DNA from: an uncultured Wenzhouxiangella sp.
GTDB lineage: Bacteria > Pseudomonadota > Gammaproteobacteria > Xanthomonadales > Wenzhouxiangellaceae
NCBI GenBank assembly: GCA_913057195.1
Contig: CAJXNL010000001.1
Coordinates: 62,001 to 126,000, forward strand
Reading direction: 5' to 3'
Length of the DNA: 64,000 nucleotides
Within the stretch, counting starts at the first letter, position 1; each line of letters starts with the position of its first letter. The translations under genes and the position numbers were made by a program. The notes below the pieces were generated by a model, which made no database searches, had not been told where the DNA came from, and worked only from the letters and a program-made list of their open reading frames with translations. Below, piece after piece: positions 4,811 through 12,929 of this stretch.

Positions 4811-6670
4811 TTAGATCGACAAGGCTTGGACGCGCTTGCGATTGCCATAAATTAAGTTCACCACTGCGCGTGTGCCCAAGATGGCGGTAAACATGGAAGT
4901 CAAAATGCCCAGACTCAAAGTCACCGCAAAGCCTTTCACCGGCCCGGTGCCAAACATAAACAAAACAATGGCTGCGATCAGGGTGGTCACGTTGGCATCC
5001 GCAATGGTGGAAAAAGCCTTCCCGTACCCTGCTCTTATCGCTGTTTGTGGAGTATTGCCCAGTCTGAGCTCTTCTTTAATTCGCTCAAAAATTAATACGT
5101 TAGCGTCGACGGCCATGCCCACGGTCAACACAATGCCCGCAATGCCTGGCAACGTCAACGTGGCCCCCAACATAGACAATAACGCGACGATCAAAACCAA
5201 GTTTGCCGTCAGCGCCAAGTTCGCAATCAACCCAAACAACTTATAAAACACGGCCATCACAACCAAGACCAACGCAAAGCCAATAATCACCGATTGGAAG
5301 CCCTGGTCAATATTGTCTTGGCCCAGGCTGGGACCAACGGTTCGTTCTTCAATAATTTGCATGGGAGCAGCCAGCGCACCAGCGCGTAACAGCATAGCCA
5401 GCTGCGTGGCCTCTGTCGCTGTGCCCAACCCAGTTGTTTGGAAGCGCCTCCCAAAGGGCTCACGGGTCACGGCGGCTGAGATCACCTCTTCAACACGGCG
5501 CGTTGTGCGAACCTCTTCGCCATCCACGATCTCAGTTTCCGGGCGGTGCTCAATAAAGACAACTGCCATTCGATTGCCCACGTTTTCGGTGGTGTGCTCA
5601 AGCATCCGACGTGCCCCCACGCCGTCCAATGTCACCACCACATTTGGCTGACCAGACTGCTGATCAAACCCAGCTGCAGCACCTACCAAATTGTCACCCG
5701 ATGCAATCACCGTGCGTGACAGTAAGATGGGTTCTCCTTGCCGGTCGAAATACAGCCGCGATTGCGCAGGAACACGCCCGGTCCGCTGTGCTTCATACGG
5801 ATCATTTTGTTCATCGACACCGCGGTACTCGACCGTGGCCGTTGAGCCCAACACCCGTTTGGCTTCTGCAGTGTCCTGAACGCCTGGCAACTGCACCACA
5901 ATTCGGTTGGCCCCTTGTTGCTGGATAATGGGCTCAGATACGCCCAGCTCGTTGACGCGATTTCGAAGTGTGGTGATGTTTTGTTGAAGGGCATTTTGCT
6001 GCAGCTCTTGCAACACCGTCTCATCAATTTGGGCTTGAATATTGTAGGTTTCGGACCCGTCCCTATTTTCCAAGGTCAACTCAGGCAGATCTCTGGCAAT
6101 AATCCGACTGGCTTCCTCTCTGTCCTCTGGGCTTCTTAATTCAGCCACAATGTCGTTTCGATCAACTCGCACAGAGCGGTAACGAATCCCTGAATTTCTC
6201 AACACCAACCGGATGTCACTGACAAAACGCTCCAGCTGTTGAGCTCGAGCCGCGTCCATGTCCACTTCCATTAAAAAGTGCACACCACCCTGAAGATCAA
6301 GCCCCAGAACCATCGGCTCGGCTGAGATCGCGCGGAGCGAATCCGGCGTGGCCGGTGCCAGGTTAAGCGCCACCACATACTCATCACCTAAGCGCTCTCT
6401 CAGCGCGTCGGCCGCCCGGGCCTGGAGCTCAGTGGATTCAAACCGAACCAACAGACGCTGGGGCGTGAAGTCAATGCCTTTTGACTCGATATTGATGCCA
6501 TCCAATGATCGCTGGATCTCGGCCGGGAATTCATCGGGCAATTCAAACCCTCGGGTCGATGAGATCTGAACCGATGGGTCGTCACCGAACAAGTTGGGGA
6601 GCGCATAAATCGCTCCCAAGCCCAACGCCACAATCAAAAGGGCATACTTCCATGCGGGGAATTTATTCAT
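4811..6670 (-). CDS. secD: Protein translocase subunit SecD
   Basis: Larger half of the SecDF accessory complex of the Sec translocon. The 619 residues show the expected plan: an N-terminal span (about 8-27), a long periplasmic region with the SecD motif GLDLQGGVHF (123-132), and a C-terminal block of five spans starting near residue 455. That block contains GMAVDANVLIFERIKEEL, whose Asp is the conserved proton-pathway residue. Its ATG at 6670 shares one base with the yajC stop (TGATG). The yajC-secD-secF order is the usual one. The tgt and queA genes that often precede yajC are replaced here by the SUF operon. Confidence 0.96.
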   Translation of the reverse strand: MNKFPAWKYALLIVALGLGAIYALPNLFGDDPSVQISSTRGFELPDEFPAEIQRSLDGINIESKGIDFTPQRLLVRFESTELQARAADALRERLGDEYVVALNLAPATPDSLRAISAEPMVLGLDLQGGVHFLMEVDMDAARAQQLERFVSDIRLVLRNSGIRYRSVRVDRNDIVAELRSPEDREEASRIIARDLPELTLENRDGSETYNIQAQIDETVLQELQQNALQQNITTLRNRVNELGVSEPIIQQQGANRIVVQLPGVQDTAEAKRVLGSTATVEYRGVDEQNDPYEAQRTGRVPAQSRLYFDRQGEPILLSRTVIASGDNLVGAAAGFDQQSGQPNVVVTLDGVGARRMLEHTTENVGNRMAVVFIEHRPETEIVDGEEVRTTRRVEEVISAAVTREPFGRRFQTTGLGTATEATQLAMLLRAGALAAPMQIIEERTVGPSLGQDNIDQGFQSVIIGFALVLVVMAVFYKLFGLIANLALTANLVLIVALLSMLGATLTLPGIAGIVLTVGMAVDANVLIFERIKEELRLGNTPQTAIRAGYGKAFSTIADANVTTLIAAIVLFMFGTGPVKGFAVTLSLGILTSMFTAILGTRAVVNLIYGNRKRVQALSI

Positions 6671-7002
6671 CAGGAAAGGTTCTTAATTGTGCCTTTAGGG
6701 ACCACTTGGGCAATGGAGTGGCGCTGAATGTTGACTTCGACGCCCTCACTGACCTCGACAGTGACAAAACTATCAGCCAACGCGCTCACTCGACCAAGAA
6801 GACCGCCTGCGCTGACCACCTCGTCACCGACCGAAAGACCCTCCACCAAGGCTTTGTGCTCTTTGTTTCGCTTCATTTGCGGGCGAATCAGCAAAAACCA
6901 AAAGATCACCACAATCAAGATCAGTGGTAACAGGCTGGCAATTAAGCTTGGCGCCTCTGGCTGGGCACTTTGTGCCATTGCGCTGGCAATCAAGAAATCC
7001 AT
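6670..7002 (-). CDS. yajC: Preprotein translocase subunit YajC
   Basis: Small single-span inner-membrane protein that associates with SecDF. The 110-residue product has a membrane helix at about residues 20-41 ending in RPQMKRNKEHK, the typical YajC junction, followed by a small beta domain (LSVGDEVVSAGGLLGRVSAL). The start is the ATG at 7002. It lies 55 bases downstream of the SUF operon in the same direction. RNA could read through from sufU or start in the gap; I found no convincing promoter or terminator there. Confidence 0.95.
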   Translation of the reverse strand: MDFLIASAMAQSAQPEAPSLIASLLPLILIVVIFWFLLIRPQMKRNKEHKALVEGLSVGDEVVSAGGLLGRVSALADSFVTVEVSEGVEVNIQRHSIAQVVPKGTIKNLS

Positions 7003-7057: not shown

Positions 7058-7489
7058 TCAGGTCAAGCCAGATGGGATCTGCATTGCTTCCAGCACGGTT
7101 TTCCAAGGCAAATAGGCGTTGGCTCGGCGGGCCGGAAACGCGCCAACCGACCGTAAATGATTAAGCTGACCGAGTGCTTCAACAGGTGGCCGGTCGGCAT
7201 CATCCATCAGCGCTTGAAACGCTTCAAAAGCCGGCAAAATCTCATCCACGCCCCGCCCCTCAAGCCACTCAGTCAGCATTGACGCACAGGCCTTGGTGAC
7301 CGCACAGGCCTCGCCTGAGAACTGAGCTTTTTCGATGGTGCGCTCTGTGACTCGCAGCCACATCTGAATATCATCACCGCACAGGGCGTCTGTCCCTCGA
7401 GCACTGTGGGTGGCATCGGCCATGGATCCAAAATTATTCGGCGCCTTGTTATGCTCGAGAATGACCTTCTGATAGAGCCGGTCGAGCAT
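7058..7489 (-). CDS. sufU: SufU-type iron-sulfur/sulfur-transfer protein, atypical cysteine set
   Basis: Member of the SufU/IscU-like family that accepts sulfur from SufS in SUF operons. The 143-residue protein keeps the first conserved Cys (Cys37, in LCGDD, with Asp39) and the second (Cys62, in GEAC). At the third canonical site, usually Cys in an RxKCATLPW context, it reads RRANAYLPW with Asn124. A new cysteine, Cys68, replaces the Ser of the usual ASASM motif (here ACASM). The DNA reads cleanly in frame through this region, so it is not a frameshift. The start ATG overlaps the sufS stop (TAATG). It is last in the suf operon, and no sufE is present nearby. Family firm; whether it binds zinc or a cluster in the normal way is open. 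Confidence 0.9.
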   Translation of the reverse strand: MLDRLYQKVILEHNKAPNNFGSMADATHSARGTDALCGDDIQMWLRVTERTIEKAQFSGEACAVTKACASMLTEWLEGRGVDEILPAFEAFQALMDDADRPPVEALGQLNHLRSVGAFPARRANAYLPWKTVLEAMQIPSGLT

Positions 7490-8742
7490 TACTGCTTGAG
7501 CATCCCTTGCGCACGCTCCAGCGCCGCCACAAATGCCTCCACCTCCTCGAGGGTGTTGTAGGCTGCAAAGGACACTCGCGCTGTCGCAGGCACATCAAAA
7601 AACTGCATTGCCGGCATGGCGCAGTGGTGGCCAGTGCGCAGCGCGACGCCGAAATGATCAACAATTGTCCCAATGTCATTGGCGTGCGCCCCCTCCATCA
7701 CGAACGACACCACCGGTCCTTTTGCGCGTGCCTGGCCAATGATCCGCAACCCCTCAAACGCCGATAAGCGCTCGGTGGTGTATGCCAACAGGCGCTGCTC
7801 ATGTTCAGCAATGGCTTCAATCCCCCAATCATCCAGAAAATCAATGGCCGCTTTCAGTCCAATGGCGCCCGCGATGTGTGGGGTGCCGGCCTCAAACTTA
7901 TGCGGAATCTCGTTGAAGGTGGTCTTGTCCAGTGTGACATGCTCAATCATTTCGCCACCCCCTTGCCATGGAGGCATCGCTTCGAGGTGCGCTGCCCGCG
8001 CCCACAGCGCGCCGATGCCGGTGGGGCCATACATTTTGTGTCCCGACACACAGTAAAAGTCACAGTTGAGTGCTTGGACATCGACATTCAGATGCGGTGT
8101 CGCCTGAGCGCCGTCGACCAACACCGGCACACCACGGTCTTTGGCGATTTGGCAAATATCGGCCACGGGATTGACTGTCCCCAGAGCATTGGACACGTGG
8201 ACCACCCCGACAAGCTTGGTGCGCTCATTGATCAGTTCAGACACTTGGTCAAGCAACAGCTCACCGTTGCCATCCATCGGAATGACTTTTAACGTCGCAC
8301 CGGTGTGCTCGCACAGCATTTGCCATGGCACAAGGTTGGCGTGGTGTTCCATGTGAGTAATCAGGATTTCGTCGCCAGCGCTCAACGTGGGCCGGACAAA
8401 CGAATTGGCGACCAAATTGACCGACTCTGTGACACCCCGCGTAAAGACAATTTCTCGGTCGCTGGGCGCGTTGAGAAACCGTGCCAACCCTGCTCGCGCA
8501 GCCTCAAATGCCTCTGAGGCTTCCACCGAGAGCTGGTGAACGCCGCGGTGAACGTTCGCGTTGTAGTCGCGATAATACCCATCGATTGCTTCGATGACCT
8601 GCCGGGGCCGCTGGCAAGTGGCGGCGTTGTCGAGATAAACCAGAGGCTTGTCGTGCACGCGACGCTGAAGGATTGGAAACTCGCGTCGAATGGCCTCAAC
8701 ATCAAGCCCCCTCACGTCCTTGTCAGCGCGCTCAGCCGTCAC
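7489..8742 (-). CDS. sufS: Cysteine desulfurase SufS
   Basis: PLP enzyme that takes sulfur from cysteine, leaving alanine and an enzyme persulfide for iron-sulfur assembly. The 417 residues include the PLP lysine Lys236 (SGHKMYGP), the THMEHHAN cofactor region and the persulfide cysteine Cys374 in RTGHHCAMPAM, the signature of group II desulfurases. The start is GTG directly after the sufD TAA, with GAGG upstream in the end of sufD. Group II enzymes need a partner such as SufE or SufU to accept sulfur; the only candidate here is the unusual SufU encoded next. Confidence 0.95.
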   Translation of the reverse strand: MTAERADKDVRGLDVEAIRREFPILQRRVHDKPLVYLDNAATCQRPRQVIEAIDGYYRDYNANVHRGVHQLSVEASEAFEAARAGLARFLNAPSDREIVFTRGVTESVNLVANSFVRPTLSAGDEILITHMEHHANLVPWQMLCEHTGATLKVIPMDGNGELLLDQVSELINERTKLVGVVHVSNALGTVNPVADICQIAKDRGVPVLVDGAQATPHLNVDVQALNCDFYCVSGHKMYGPTGIGALWARAAHLEAMPPWQGGGEMIEHVTLDKTTFNEIPHKFEAGTPHIAGAIGLKAAIDFLDDWGIEAIAEHEQRLLAYTTERLSAFEGLRIIGQARAKGPVVSFVMEGAHANDIGTIVDHFGVALRTGHHCAMPAMQFFDVPATARVSFAAYNTLEEVEAFVAALERAQGMLKQ

Positions 8743-9960
8743 TTACAGCGCCTCTTTCAACTGCTCAAGCGCCCAATCACGAATGGCAGGCGTTTGAATC
8801 TGCATCAGAGGTTCCGCCGCGAATCCATACTTCAAAAGGGCCAAACTCTCTGCTTCGCTTAACCCACGCGAGCGCATGTAAAACAGCGATCGATCGTCCA
8901 GCTGGCCAATGGTGGCACCGTGACTGGCCGTCACCTCCTCAGAATAAATTTCAAGCTCCGGTTTGATGTTCACCCGAGCTTGGTCGCTCAGCAGCAAGTT
9001 GGCAGTGTTGAGATCCGAGTGTGAGTCATCGGCATCGGGGAAAATATGAATGCGTCCATTAAACACCCCAACGCTTGTGCCACCTGCCAGCATCCGAAAC
9101 GCCTCGCGGCTGTTGGTGTGGCCGGTGCAGTGAACAATCTCAGTATGCCAATCCACATGCTGGTGCCCATCCATGACGACAAGCCCATCAATCTCACCGT
9201 GGGCAGTGCCTTCACGTAAGCGCATGGTGAGGTCATGGCGTGTGAGTCGGCCACCGCGGTCAAATGCCACCACACGATATTCAGCCGCTTTGTGAATATC
9301 AACATCGGTCCGTTGCACCCAAACCGATTCATGGTTTTTGCAACAAAGCACGTGCTCGACTTGCGCACCTTCGGCCACATCAATCTCACAGTTCATGTTG
9401 ACCAAGCCTTGGCCGGCGTCTGTTTGATCCTGCAACAGCGTTAATCGAGCGCCTGGCAAAACCTCAATCCTGATCCGTGGGTGCACGTCGGCACTGAATG
9501 CATCAGTTGTGGTGGTGGCCATGATGACAGTGTGCTCACCACTGACCTGGAGATGCCAGGCGTGGTCAAATCGCGCCAAATTAAGCCAAGAAAATGCACC
9601 CTCACGGCCACCATACAGCGCGTCAAAGTCACGCTGCTCAAGCGCCTTGGGATCGGCTGGCATCAGTGTCAAACCCTCCGCCAACTCGCCGGGGTCGCAC
9701 TGCAAAATGCCATGATCAAAATGCAGCAAGGTGCCAGCCACAGGCCAGGCAGGCAAGGCCGCAGGCTCACCCATTGTCCTGGGTTCTGTTTGCGTCTCCC
9801 GCTGCTCAAGGACCCGCAACGGCGTGTACTTCCAGGCCTCCGTTTTTTGGTCAGGAAAACCATGCTGCATCAAACGCTGCAAACCCACCTTACGTGTGGC
9901 TTCATAGTCATCAGCGCAGGCCTGTGCCTCTGGCATCAATGTTTGGGCCAACGCGCTCAT
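8743..9960 (-). CDS. sufD: Fe-S cluster assembly protein SufD
   Basis: Subunit of the SufBC2D scaffold complex on which new iron-sulfur clusters form. The 405-residue protein has a helical N-terminal part ([11 protein letters not shown]) and the long right-handed beta-helix core shared with SufB. Its C-terminal region carries [20 protein letters not shown] with the conserved His near residue 345 that pairs functionally with the SufB cysteine. The ATG overlaps the sufC stop by four bases. N-terminal sequence is poorly conserved, as is usual for SufD. Confidence 0.93.
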
Positions 9961-10706
9961 GCCGATGCCCTCTCCAGGTGCGCGTAGCCTTGCTCTTCCA
10001 GACGATGCGCAAGTTCTGGCCCGCCGCTTTCAACAATCTGACCGTCCGATAAGACGTGCACGTGATCCGGAGAGAGATAGTCAAGCAAGCGTTGATAGTG
10101 GGTGATCACCAAAAATGAACGCTGACCATCTCTCAAACGATTGATCCCTTCAGCGACCAGTTTGAGCGCATCAATGTCCAGCCCAGAATCGGTCTCGTCC
10201 AAGATCGCCAGTCTCGGCTGCAAAACTGCCATCTGAGTGATTTCATTTCGTTTTTTCTCGCCCCCTGAAAAGCCTTCATTCACGGCGCGTTTGAGCAATG
10301 ACTCATCCATGTCCAGGCCTTTGAGCGACTCACGCACCATCTTTAAAAACTCAACGCCGTCCACCTCTGATTCCCCACGCGCTTTACGCTGCGCGTTCAG
10401 TGCGGCTCTGAGAAAGTAAGCGTTGTTGACTCCAGGGATTTCAACCGGATATTGAAAAGCCAAGAATAAACCTGCCGCGGCGCGCTCATCGGGCTCCATC
10501 TCACCGAGGTCTTCACCATCAAACTCAATCGAGCCGCTGGTGATTTCATAATCCTCACGCCCGGCCAGTGTGTAGCCGAGTGTGGATTTGCCAGACCCAT
10601 TTGGGCCCATCACGGCGTGCAGCTCACCGGGGCCAATCTCTAAATCCAGGCCTTTAAGGATTTCTTGATCTTCAACACTGACGTGCAAGTTTTTTATTTT
10701 CAACAT
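9957..10706 (-). CDS. sufC: Fe-S cluster assembly ATPase SufC
   Basis: ABC-type ATPase of the SufBC2D complex, cytoplasmic. Walker A is GPNGSGKST (residues 34-42), the signature motif reads [11 protein letters not shown] and the Walker B region [16 protein letters not shown], all matching SufC. I chose the ATG at 10706 ([13 protein letters not shown]), the usual SufC beginning, giving 249 residues. An in-frame ATG at 10724 would add MVGLSN but has no better ribosome-binding site. A short ATTCA repeat lies just upstream. Confidence 0.95.
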
Positions 10707-10722
10707 ATTCGATAATCCAACC

Positions 10723-10737
10723 ATTCAATTCAATTCA
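10723..10737. repeat. Three tandem ATTCA units before sufC
   Basis: Three exact five-base units lie in the 84-base gap between sufB and sufC, touching the alternative sufC start. Three copies is too few to call a phase-variable tract; recorded only as local structure. Confidence 0.3.
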
Positions 10738-10790: not shown

Positions 10791-12236
10791 TTACCCGACA
10801 GAGCCTTCCAACGAGATTTCCAACAGCGCCTTGGCCTCAACCGCAAATTCCATGGGAAGCTCTTTAAAGACCTCCTTACAGAACCCATCGACAATCAGTG
10901 CCACTGCCTCCTCTTCATCCAGCCCACGGGACCGGCAGTAGAACAGCTGATCTTCACCAATGCGGGACGTCGTGGCCTCATGCTCAATCTTGGCCCCGGC
11001 GTTGGCCGATTCGATGTAGGGGAAAGTGTGTGCCCCGCAGGTCTTGCCAATCAAAAGGCTGTCACACTGGGTATAGTTTCGAACGTTGTCCGCTTTTTTC
11101 GCCACTCTCACCAAGCCGCGGTAACTGTTGTTGCTTTTCCCAGCCGAGATGCCTTTTGAAATGATCTTGCTTGTGGAGTCTTTGCCCAAGTGAATCATCT
11201 TTGTACCGGTGTCGGCTTGCTGATGGTTATGAGTCAGCGCGACCGAATAAAACTCACCCGCTGAGCGATCTCCGCGCATAATGCAAGAGGGATATTTCCA
11301 CGTGATGGCTGAGCCTGTCTCAACCTGAGTCCATGAGATCCGTGAGTCATCGCCTCGGCAATCCCCGCGCTTGGTCACAAAGTTATAAATGCCACCTTTG
11401 CCATTTTCATCACCGGGATACCAATTTTGGACGGTGGAATACTTGATTTGCGCTTGCTCTAGCGCCACCAGCTCAACCACCGCCGCGTGCAGTTGATTCT
11501 CATCGCGCATCGGCGCCGTGCACCCTTCTAAGTAACTCACCTTTGAGCCAGGCTCTGCAACAATCAACGTCCGCTCAAATTGACCCGTGTCGCGCGCATT
11601 GATCCGAAAATAGGTGGACAGCTCCATCGGACACACCGTGTCTTTGGGCACATAGACAAATGAGCCATCGGAAAACACCGCCGAGTTCAGTGCTGCAAAA
11701 AAGTTATCGGTGTGAGGCACGACCGTGCCCAAGTACTGCCGAACCAAGTCCGGATGCTTTTGCACTGCCTCGCTCATCGGACAGAAAATAACGCCCGCCT
11801 CTTCGAGTTCCTTTTGAAACGTGGTGCCAACCGAGACCGAGTCGAAGACGGCATCCACCGCCACGCCAGCCAAGCGCGCCCGCTCATGAAGCGGCACACC
11901 CAGCTTGTCAAAGGTCTCCAACAGCTTAGGATCAACCTCATCCAAGCTCTTGGGCCGATTTTTTTGTTTCGGCGACGCGTAGTAGTGAATGGCCTGAAAA
12001 TCCACCGCCGGCACATCCAAATGAGCCCAGTTTGGCGCCTTCATGGTCAGCCAATGGCGATACGCCTTCAGTCGCCACTCCAGCAGCCACTCAGGCTCAT
12101 TTTTCTTCGCTGAAATCATCGCAACGATTTCTTCATCCAAACCTGGACGAATCATGTCCGACTCAATGTCCGTTGTGAATCCAGCGGTGTACCGTTGCTG
12201 GAGTCGGCTTTCAATTTTTTCGACTGTCTCACTCAT
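10791..12236 (-). CDS. sufB: Fe-S cluster assembly protein SufB
   Basis: Scaffold subunit of SufBC2D where cluster assembly is thought to start. At 481 residues it has the usual SufB length. Recognisable blocks include [18 protein letters not shown] near the N-terminus, [20 protein letters not shown], and [18 protein letters not shown], whose Cys near residue 400 corresponds to the essential SufB cysteine. ATG at 12236. It follows the Rrf2 regulator by 92 bases and leads the structural genes of the operon. The order sufB-C-D-S-U is typical of SUF operons that use SufU. Confidence 0.96.
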
Positions 12237-12328: not shown

Positions 12329-12796
12329 TCACCCATCAAAATGCGTGGTGATTGGGATTTTGCCTTGCCCCAGCATCGGCTTTGACTTGTTTAAGCCAGC
12401 CAAGTCCGCCAGACTGAGGTCTTGCAGCGCCTGCTCGACGGCTGAACCGATCGTTTGCCAACTGCTTTTCAGGCTGCAGTAGGCCTCGTGCGAGCACAAA
12501 CCCGGCTCAAGGCCGCACTCGGTCATCGCAATGGGGCCTTCCATGGCTTCGACAATCGCCGCCACTGACATGTCGGCGGGGCGAGCAGTGAGCTGATAGC
12601 CTCCGTTCACGCCCCGAATGGAGCGCACCAAGCCGCCCCTGGCCAACATTTTGAGGACTTTTGCCACCGTGGATGGCTCAATCGCGGTAACCTCTGCAAG
12701 CTGATTGGCCGAGGCACGCGCATCCCACGGCTGTTGCCGAGCCAGCTCGGCGAGCAGCACCGTGGCATAGTCTGTCAGCTTGCTGATTCGGAGCAT
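12329..12796 (-). CDS. Rrf2-family SUF operon regulator
   Basis: Transcription regulator of the IscR/SufR-like Rrf2 family, placed first in the SUF operon. The 155-residue protein starts MLRISKLTDYATVLL, a winged-helix DNA-binding beginning typical of SUF-associated Rrf2 regulators, and has the conserved RSIRGVNGGYQL wing. Three cysteines (Cys94, Cys101, Cys107; spacing C-x6-C-x5-C) could hold an iron-sulfur cluster, as in IscR. The ATG at 12796 has GAGG just upstream; an in-frame TTG at 12811 is less likely. It probably senses cluster demand and controls its own operon; this is known for the family and inferred here. I could not identify a clear operator in the 133-base divergent gap. Confidence 0.9.
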   Translation of the reverse strand: MLRISKLTDYATVLLAELARQQPWDARASANQLAEVTAIEPSTVAKVLKMLARGGLVRSIRGVNGGYQLTARPADMSVAAIVEAMEGPIAMTECGLEPGLCSHEAYCSLKSSWQTIGSAVEQALQDLSLADLAGLNKSKPMLGQGKIPITTHFDG

Positions 12797-12929
12797 AATG
12801 GCCTCGCCCAATACTTATTAATCACATCATAACAAATGAAGACCAAATCAGTATGAATTACGTGAAGATCGGGGATCCCGTAGACTGGGGTGAAGGCCCT
12901 TTTCGGACAGTGTGACAAGGCTTGATGCG

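Follow-up and report, generated by a model that had tools for sequence, protein, structure and literature searches.

How does a cell move sulfur through a SufU protein in which one of the zinc ligands has been replaced? The question is raised by a stretch of 64,000 nucleotides (hereafter the window) from an uncultured member of Wenzhouxiangella, a gammaproteobacterial genus. An initial annotation of this DNA had remarked that SufU had lost its third canonical cysteine and gained another one nearby, and had proposed either a swapped ligand or a transfer of sulfur that dispenses with the usual metal site. Zinc, together with a swap of its ligands, is regarded as making the SufS-SufU pair work. 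In the Mycobacterium tuberculosis complex, as described in PMC10216065, zinc is held by one aspartate and two cysteines of SufU together with His354 of SufS, which displaces the acceptor residue Cys40 of SufU (the third zinc ligand is printed there as 'Cys31', and is taken here as Cys131). The place of that histidine is the 'X position' of PMC11408855, where it is given as histidine in enzymes that work with SufU, tyrosine in the Escherichia coli SufS-SufE pair and serine in CsdA-CsdE.

The sufU frame is intact, as first annotated; it lies on the minus strand, starts with ATG and encodes 143 residues, and the plus-strand frame over the same segment is interrupted by stops. Its start and the stop codon of sufS overlap as TAATG. 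The product scores 103.8 bits with the SufU model TIGR01994, above the curated cut-off of 92.5, and 39.5 bits with the IscU model, far below the cut-off of 192.4. NifU_N is the sole Pfam family matched at E 0.001, and a scan of the protein for the SufE family (PF02657) gave no match. The structures in the PDB closest to its predicted model (pLDDT 93.4) are Thermus thermophilus IscU (2qq4) and Bacillus subtilis SufU (6jzv and 6jzw). The five residues singled out at the outset, Cys37, Asp39, Cys62, Cys68 and Asn124, are all in place. In agreement with that annotation, B. subtilis SufU has a cysteine aligned with Asn124 and a serine aligned with Cys68. Residue 123 is an alanine where B. subtilis has a lysine. 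Sites 62 and 124 keep a spacing of 62, the same as that of Cys66 and Cys128 in B. subtilis (numbering of PMC6006206) and a longer stretch than in IscU. The cysteine equivalent to Cys37 is described as the sulfur acceptor in the SufU proteins studied (PMC10216065). By its sequence the window protein is a SufU; by the definition of the zinc site it is an atypical one.

The gene is the last of the run rrf2-sufB-sufC-sufD-sufS-sufU (Table 1), and the catalytic cysteine of SufS is present, as had been noted. Beyond sufU, on the same strand, yajC-like and secD-like ORFs were recognized by eye (window 4811-7002); secD matches likewise lie beyond sufU at two other loci (L052 and L054). Within the genus of the window, sufU and sufS were found on one retrieved stretch and on the same strand in 23 of 25 genomes, with hits 3-2660 bases apart; in the other two, the contigs measure 4.2 and 3.1 kb. 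Two genera of the family, g3 and g7, carry sufU outside the suf operon, on a contig other than that of sufS (L058, L059, L060, L062, L067, L068 and L069). The ORFs around these seven loci, inspected by eye, displayed no common neighbour gene.

Table 1. Features of the suf operon in the window (positions counted from its first letter).
Feature	Positions	Strand	Remarks
sufU, Asn-type, 143 aa	7058..7489	minus	ATG start; TIGR01994 score; predicted model
SufU Asn124 codon AAC	7118..7120	minus	third zinc-ligand place
SufU Cys68 codon	7286..7288	minus	additional Cys, unlinked to Asn124
SufU Cys62 codon	7304..7306	minus	second zinc ligand; Cys in 123/135
SufU Asp39 codon	7373..7375	minus	zinc ligand in studied SufU; Asp in 133/135
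SufU Cys37 codon	7379..7381	minus	sulfur acceptor in studied SufU; Cys in 135/135
sufS, group II cysteine desulfurase	7489..8742	minus	GTG start; TIGR01979 577.3 vs 475.1 bits
SufS Cys374 codon	7621..7623	minus	catalytic Cys
SufS Asn355 codon AAT	7678..7680	minus	place of zinc-swapping His (B. subtilis His342, M. tuberculosis His354)
sufD-like	8743..9960	minus	TIGR01981 212.7 bits, slightly below cut-off 222
sufC	9957..10724	minus	TIGR01978 370.2 vs 212.8 bits
sufB	10791..12236	minus	NF008773 903.4 vs 717 bits
SUF-type Rrf2 regulator	12329..12811	minus	TIGR02944 146.7 vs 110.65 bits

Is the asparagine an accident of this genome? A SufU hit was obtained in 139 of the 299 genomes of the order. 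Three partial hits (G082, G132, G176) were omitted and one locus (L133, in G137) fell below the SufU threshold; the comparison covers 135 proteins, 134 loci and the window. Their third site is Cys in 53, Ser in 38, Asn in 33, Thr in 6 and Ala in 5. Asparagine occupies it in 33 of the 38 SufU of the window's family, all 33 from genera g1, g3, g6 and g7, and in none of the order's SufU outside that family; the remaining five (g2, g4, g5) have cysteine. It is invariant across a 14-row alignment. In a SufU tree, built on few columns, the Asn-type proteins form one clade (SH-aLRT 95) and the Thr-type another (99). Further afield, a class-wide search outside the order returned a cysteine at this site in 29 of 29 best hits, with a SufS motif near 28 of them and a histidine at position X in all 28; a search with an Asn-type profile met cysteine in all 73 hits from outside the family (among the best 80 of at least 536). 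A sequencing error or isolated mutation of codon 124, named by the initial annotation as what would undo its case, is contradicted by the 33 of 38 family SufU that share the residue and may practically be dismissed. The best explanation is that the Asn-type SufU is a clade-wide subtype of Wenzhouxiangella and near genera. Loss goes further elsewhere in the order: Cys62 and the third cysteine are both missing in 12 of the 135 proteins, leaving Cys37 alone of the three. Six of these are Thr-type (L076, L083, L088, L103, L106, L110) and five Ala-type (L079, L085, L090, L093, L099), the last being L071. The window SufU is a new variant within this order-wide series of zinc-site losses; in the titles and abstracts of open-licence papers we found nothing on SufU devoid of the third cysteine.

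Cys68, six residues past Cys62 in the same protein, offered itself as the substitute for the lost ligand. Its distribution speaks otherwise, and the co-occurrence with Asn124 that the initial annotation had proposed to look for does not hold among relatives. Only four of the 135 proteins carry it: two Asn-type (the window and G037) among 33, and two Cys-type (G069 and G076) among 53, which have it alongside a complete ligand set. The tree requires at least three separate changes to account for it. In the SufU model, moreover, helix 63-76 begins directly after Cys62, and Cys68 lies well within it. With 31 of 33 Asn-type proteins deprived of this residue, the swapped ligand suggested at first is ruled out by distribution as a general compensation, and we consider a role of Cys68 as zinc ligand very improbable.

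The other partner has changed as well. At position X the window SufS has Asn355. We compared this position in 139 genomes, 109 SufU bearers for which SufS was obtained (out of 135; for 26, SufS was missing from the retrieved stretch or fell below threshold) and 30 hand-picked genomes without SufU, one of which (G055) has a SufS that ends before position X. Beside an Asn-type SufU, X is Asn in 31 genomes and His in 2 (n = 33); beside a Thr-type, Thr in 6 of 6; beside a Ser- or Ala-type, the histidine is kept in 38 of 38 (34 and 4); beside a Cys-type, it is His in 28 and Asn in 4. Seven Asn-type genomes have the two genes on separate contigs, and X is Asn in 7 of 7 of these. The cultured species Wenzhouxiangella limi (locus L232) likewise shows Asn at both sites. 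The SufU-less genomes have His in 17, Thr in 7, Gln in 4, Asn in 1 and one unread, so that histidine is lost in 12 of the 29 read. Two genomes, G099 and G201, combine an Asn-type SufU with a histidine at X, and four, G049, G063, G070 and G077 (L097, L104, L108, L112), combine a full-cysteine SufU with an asparagine at X; the latter are counterexamples to a simple link. In the SufS tree three changes are needed for the Asn/Asn state, in keeping with a single gain followed by two reversions to histidine. The association of the two sites has a Fisher p of 1.6e-20, a figure that counts related genomes as independent and hence is no proof. Because only two of the five independent SufS changes go with SufU (three do not), too few events for a test of the pair on the tree, which takes at least six informative pairs, the sequences make the co-change suggestive, not proven.

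Where do the changes proper to the Asn clade fall? Taking SufU bearers only, we retained the columns in which one state reaches at least 90% inside the clade and no more than 10% beyond it. In SufS, five of the 417 columns qualify (70, 73, 76, 342 and 355, the last being position X), and in SufU four of the 143 (34, 40, 75 and 124). Columns 34 and 40 flank Cys37, and 124 is the third ligand; 75 lies elsewhere. In SufS, 70, 73 and 76 come just past Arg66, in a loop near the carrier, and 342 is outside both segments. Arg66 would correspond to E. coli Arg56, judging from the offset between Cys374 and Cys364, and the Arg56 region is described as contacting the carrier (PMC11408855). The rare changes of the clade cluster on the two sides of a single active site. 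As a side observation, SufU position 34, three residues ahead of Cys37 (window 7373-7390 covers residues 34-39), is a further mark of the clade: it is Asp in all 33 Asn-type proteins, against Asn in 100 of the 102 other SufU. The Thr clade is set apart by 15 columns of SufS and 9 of SufU, and the Thr match between the two proteins is weaker evidence for that reason.

The sufU gene is under purifying selection: dN/dS is 0.09-0.27 in nine Asn-type pairs (simple counting; dS above 1 in three). In six of those nine pairs sufS has 0.04-0.08, the ratio of sufU being 2-5 times that of sufS. Cys37, Gly38 and Arg121 are present in 135 of 135 SufU, including the 12 that lack both other cysteines; Tyr6 is found in 127 of 135, and Cys37, Asp39 and Cys62 in 33 of 33 Asn-type proteins. 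On the side of SufS, His353 is found in all 109 SufU bearers and in 19 of the 30 SufU-less genomes, the other 11 having Gln. By its place, this residue would be the SufU contact His352 of PMC10216065. E. coli SufE is described as contacting the same residue (PMC11408855), and few clades are involved; the pattern thus counts as support for a SufU still in use and as nothing firmer.

The initial annotation had reasoned that, with no sufE nearby, SufS must rely on SufU. There is indeed none near the locus, but the genome (1,775,052 bases, 98.94% complete) has one on another contig (G000:C14:14664-15020), overlapping the end of a cysS-like ORF (by eye). A genome without SufE is thereby ruled out, and the alleged reliance on SufU falls. 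Of the two joint conditions that the initial annotation had set against its reading, a Cys68 far from the site and a separate sufE, the second thus holds. This SufE displays the GCQS and Arg motifs, a pair shared by 30 of 30 sampled genomes; we take the cysteine of the former and the latter to be E. coli Cys51 and Arg119. SufE was found in 284 of the 299 genomes of the order. The window genome contains a single NifU_N protein, and no IscU was found in it. Because NifU_N proteins (SufU or IscU) are absent from 29 of 29 SufU-less relatives searched (G055 not among them), all 30 SufU-less genomes have SufS and SufE is so widespread, SUF in this order can, on gene content, run on SufE alone. One genome, G099, has a second, more distant SufE-like gene (G099:C1:1260489-1260884; 39% identity), and keeps the SufS histidine with its Asn-type SufU. 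Could SufU serve another desulfurase? A SufS query retrieved one other hit in the window genome, L187, which has no cysteine at the SufS place (by eye) and scores 167.8 against the SufS cut-off of 475.1; of the second SufS hits in relatives, the 15 retrieved, from 14 genomes, had no desulfurase motif in their longest frame. Among the hits of the SufS query, a second desulfurase as the real partner was therefore rejected. According to PMC6006206, genomes with SufU tend to be without SufE. In the order of the window the two co-occur, contrary to the tendency stated there.

Our main reading, to which we give roughly even odds (about 0.5), is that SufU continues to dock on SufS and, alongside SufE, accepts sulfur at Cys37 with no recourse to the classic zinc-ligand swap; we infer docking, sulfur transfer, absence of zinc and a contact between the two asparagines as its elements. 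SufU would dock through its kept face (Gly38, Arg121, Tyr6) against the HxxD helix of SufS, and Cys37 would enter the SufS pocket and receive the persulfide sulfur. Of the four ligands of the complex studied, only Asp39 and Cys62 are left, the other places being Asn124 and SufS Asn355; because two of the four are asparagines, the release of Cys37 would have to run differently. The opening of its loop might depend on protein contacts, perhaps a hydrogen bond between Asn124 and Asn355, by analogy with the zinc-free SufS-SufE pair. The one SufS of the cell would be shared by SufU and the separate SufE. The least demanding reading of the sequences would accordingly be a metal-free or metal-optional SufU carrier, with SufE and SufU on one SufS. 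That SufU works, and would do so by transfer without its usual metal site as first proposed, is reasonable, since the third cysteine is lost, relatives share the asparagine and selection is purifying; the transfer gains weight because position X of SufS has changed too, a point that the initial annotation did not report.

Two other readings deserve discussion. SufU might be a leftover: SufE would serve SufS, while a relaxed SufU retained a minor or different role. The near ubiquity of SufE, with its motifs intact in this genome, the SufU-less relatives that have SufS and no NifU_N protein, the faster evolution of sufU relative to sufS and the loss of the SufS histidine in genomes without SufU all go in this direction. 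Yet dN/dS stays well under 1, Cys37, Gly38 and Arg121 never vary, Asn124 is invariant within its clade, and the clade-specific changes gather round the active site in both proteins, which makes a leftover rather unlikely in our eyes. Zinc might also be kept, by Cys37, Asp39 and Cys62 completed with Asn124 or water, and a weakened swap continue. The three residues are indeed retained by every Asn-type SufU, but the histidine that would carry out the swap is absent from the SufS of 31 of 33 such genomes, and asparagine is a poor zinc ligand. E. coli SufS, with its tyrosine at that place, is reported to gain nothing from M. tuberculosis SufU (PMC10216065). We grant this possibility little chance.

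If sulfur is indeed carried without the swap, what does the window SufU resemble? It shares with the zinc-dependent SufU of B. subtilis and M. tuberculosis (TIGR01994) the family, the fold, the acceptor cysteine, Asp39 and Cys62, the docking arginine and the linkage to sufS. It departs from them in several traits: where these have three cysteines and one aspartate as ligands, the third is here Asn124; where a lysine precedes the third cysteine, as described in PMC10216065, here stands Ala123; where SufS has a histidine at the swap position, here it has Asn355; and where the genome tends to be without SufE (PMC6006206), here one lies on another contig. Like the E. coli SufS-SufE pair, it would combine a zinc-free sulfur carrier acting through one cysteine with a group II SufS; unlike SufE, it shows no homology to that family in family scans, and a true SufE is encoded in the same genome. 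With the scaffold IscU it shares the NifU_N superfamily, but it is far below the IscU cut-off and lacks the cluster-binding third cysteine.

Seen across the order, the combinations form a series: Asn in SufU with Asn in SufS; Thr with Thr, Cys62 being lost; Ser or Ala with the SufS histidine. This suggests, as a tentative extension about which our doubts outweigh our confidence, that the order may be dismantling the SufS-SufU zinc swap and yet keeping SufU, as a metal-free and partly single-cysteine carrier become SufE-like by convergence and sharing one SufS with SufE. A preprint proposes that SufE is a zinc-independent module that arose after SufU (PMC12803347); compared with that proposal as given there, the SufU series of this order would be another route away from zinc, one taken inside SufU. 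Such natural variants, which have lost one or two of the zinc cysteines and kept the acceptor cysteine and the docking arginine, would allow a direct test of whether zinc is indispensable or just one means of opening the loop.
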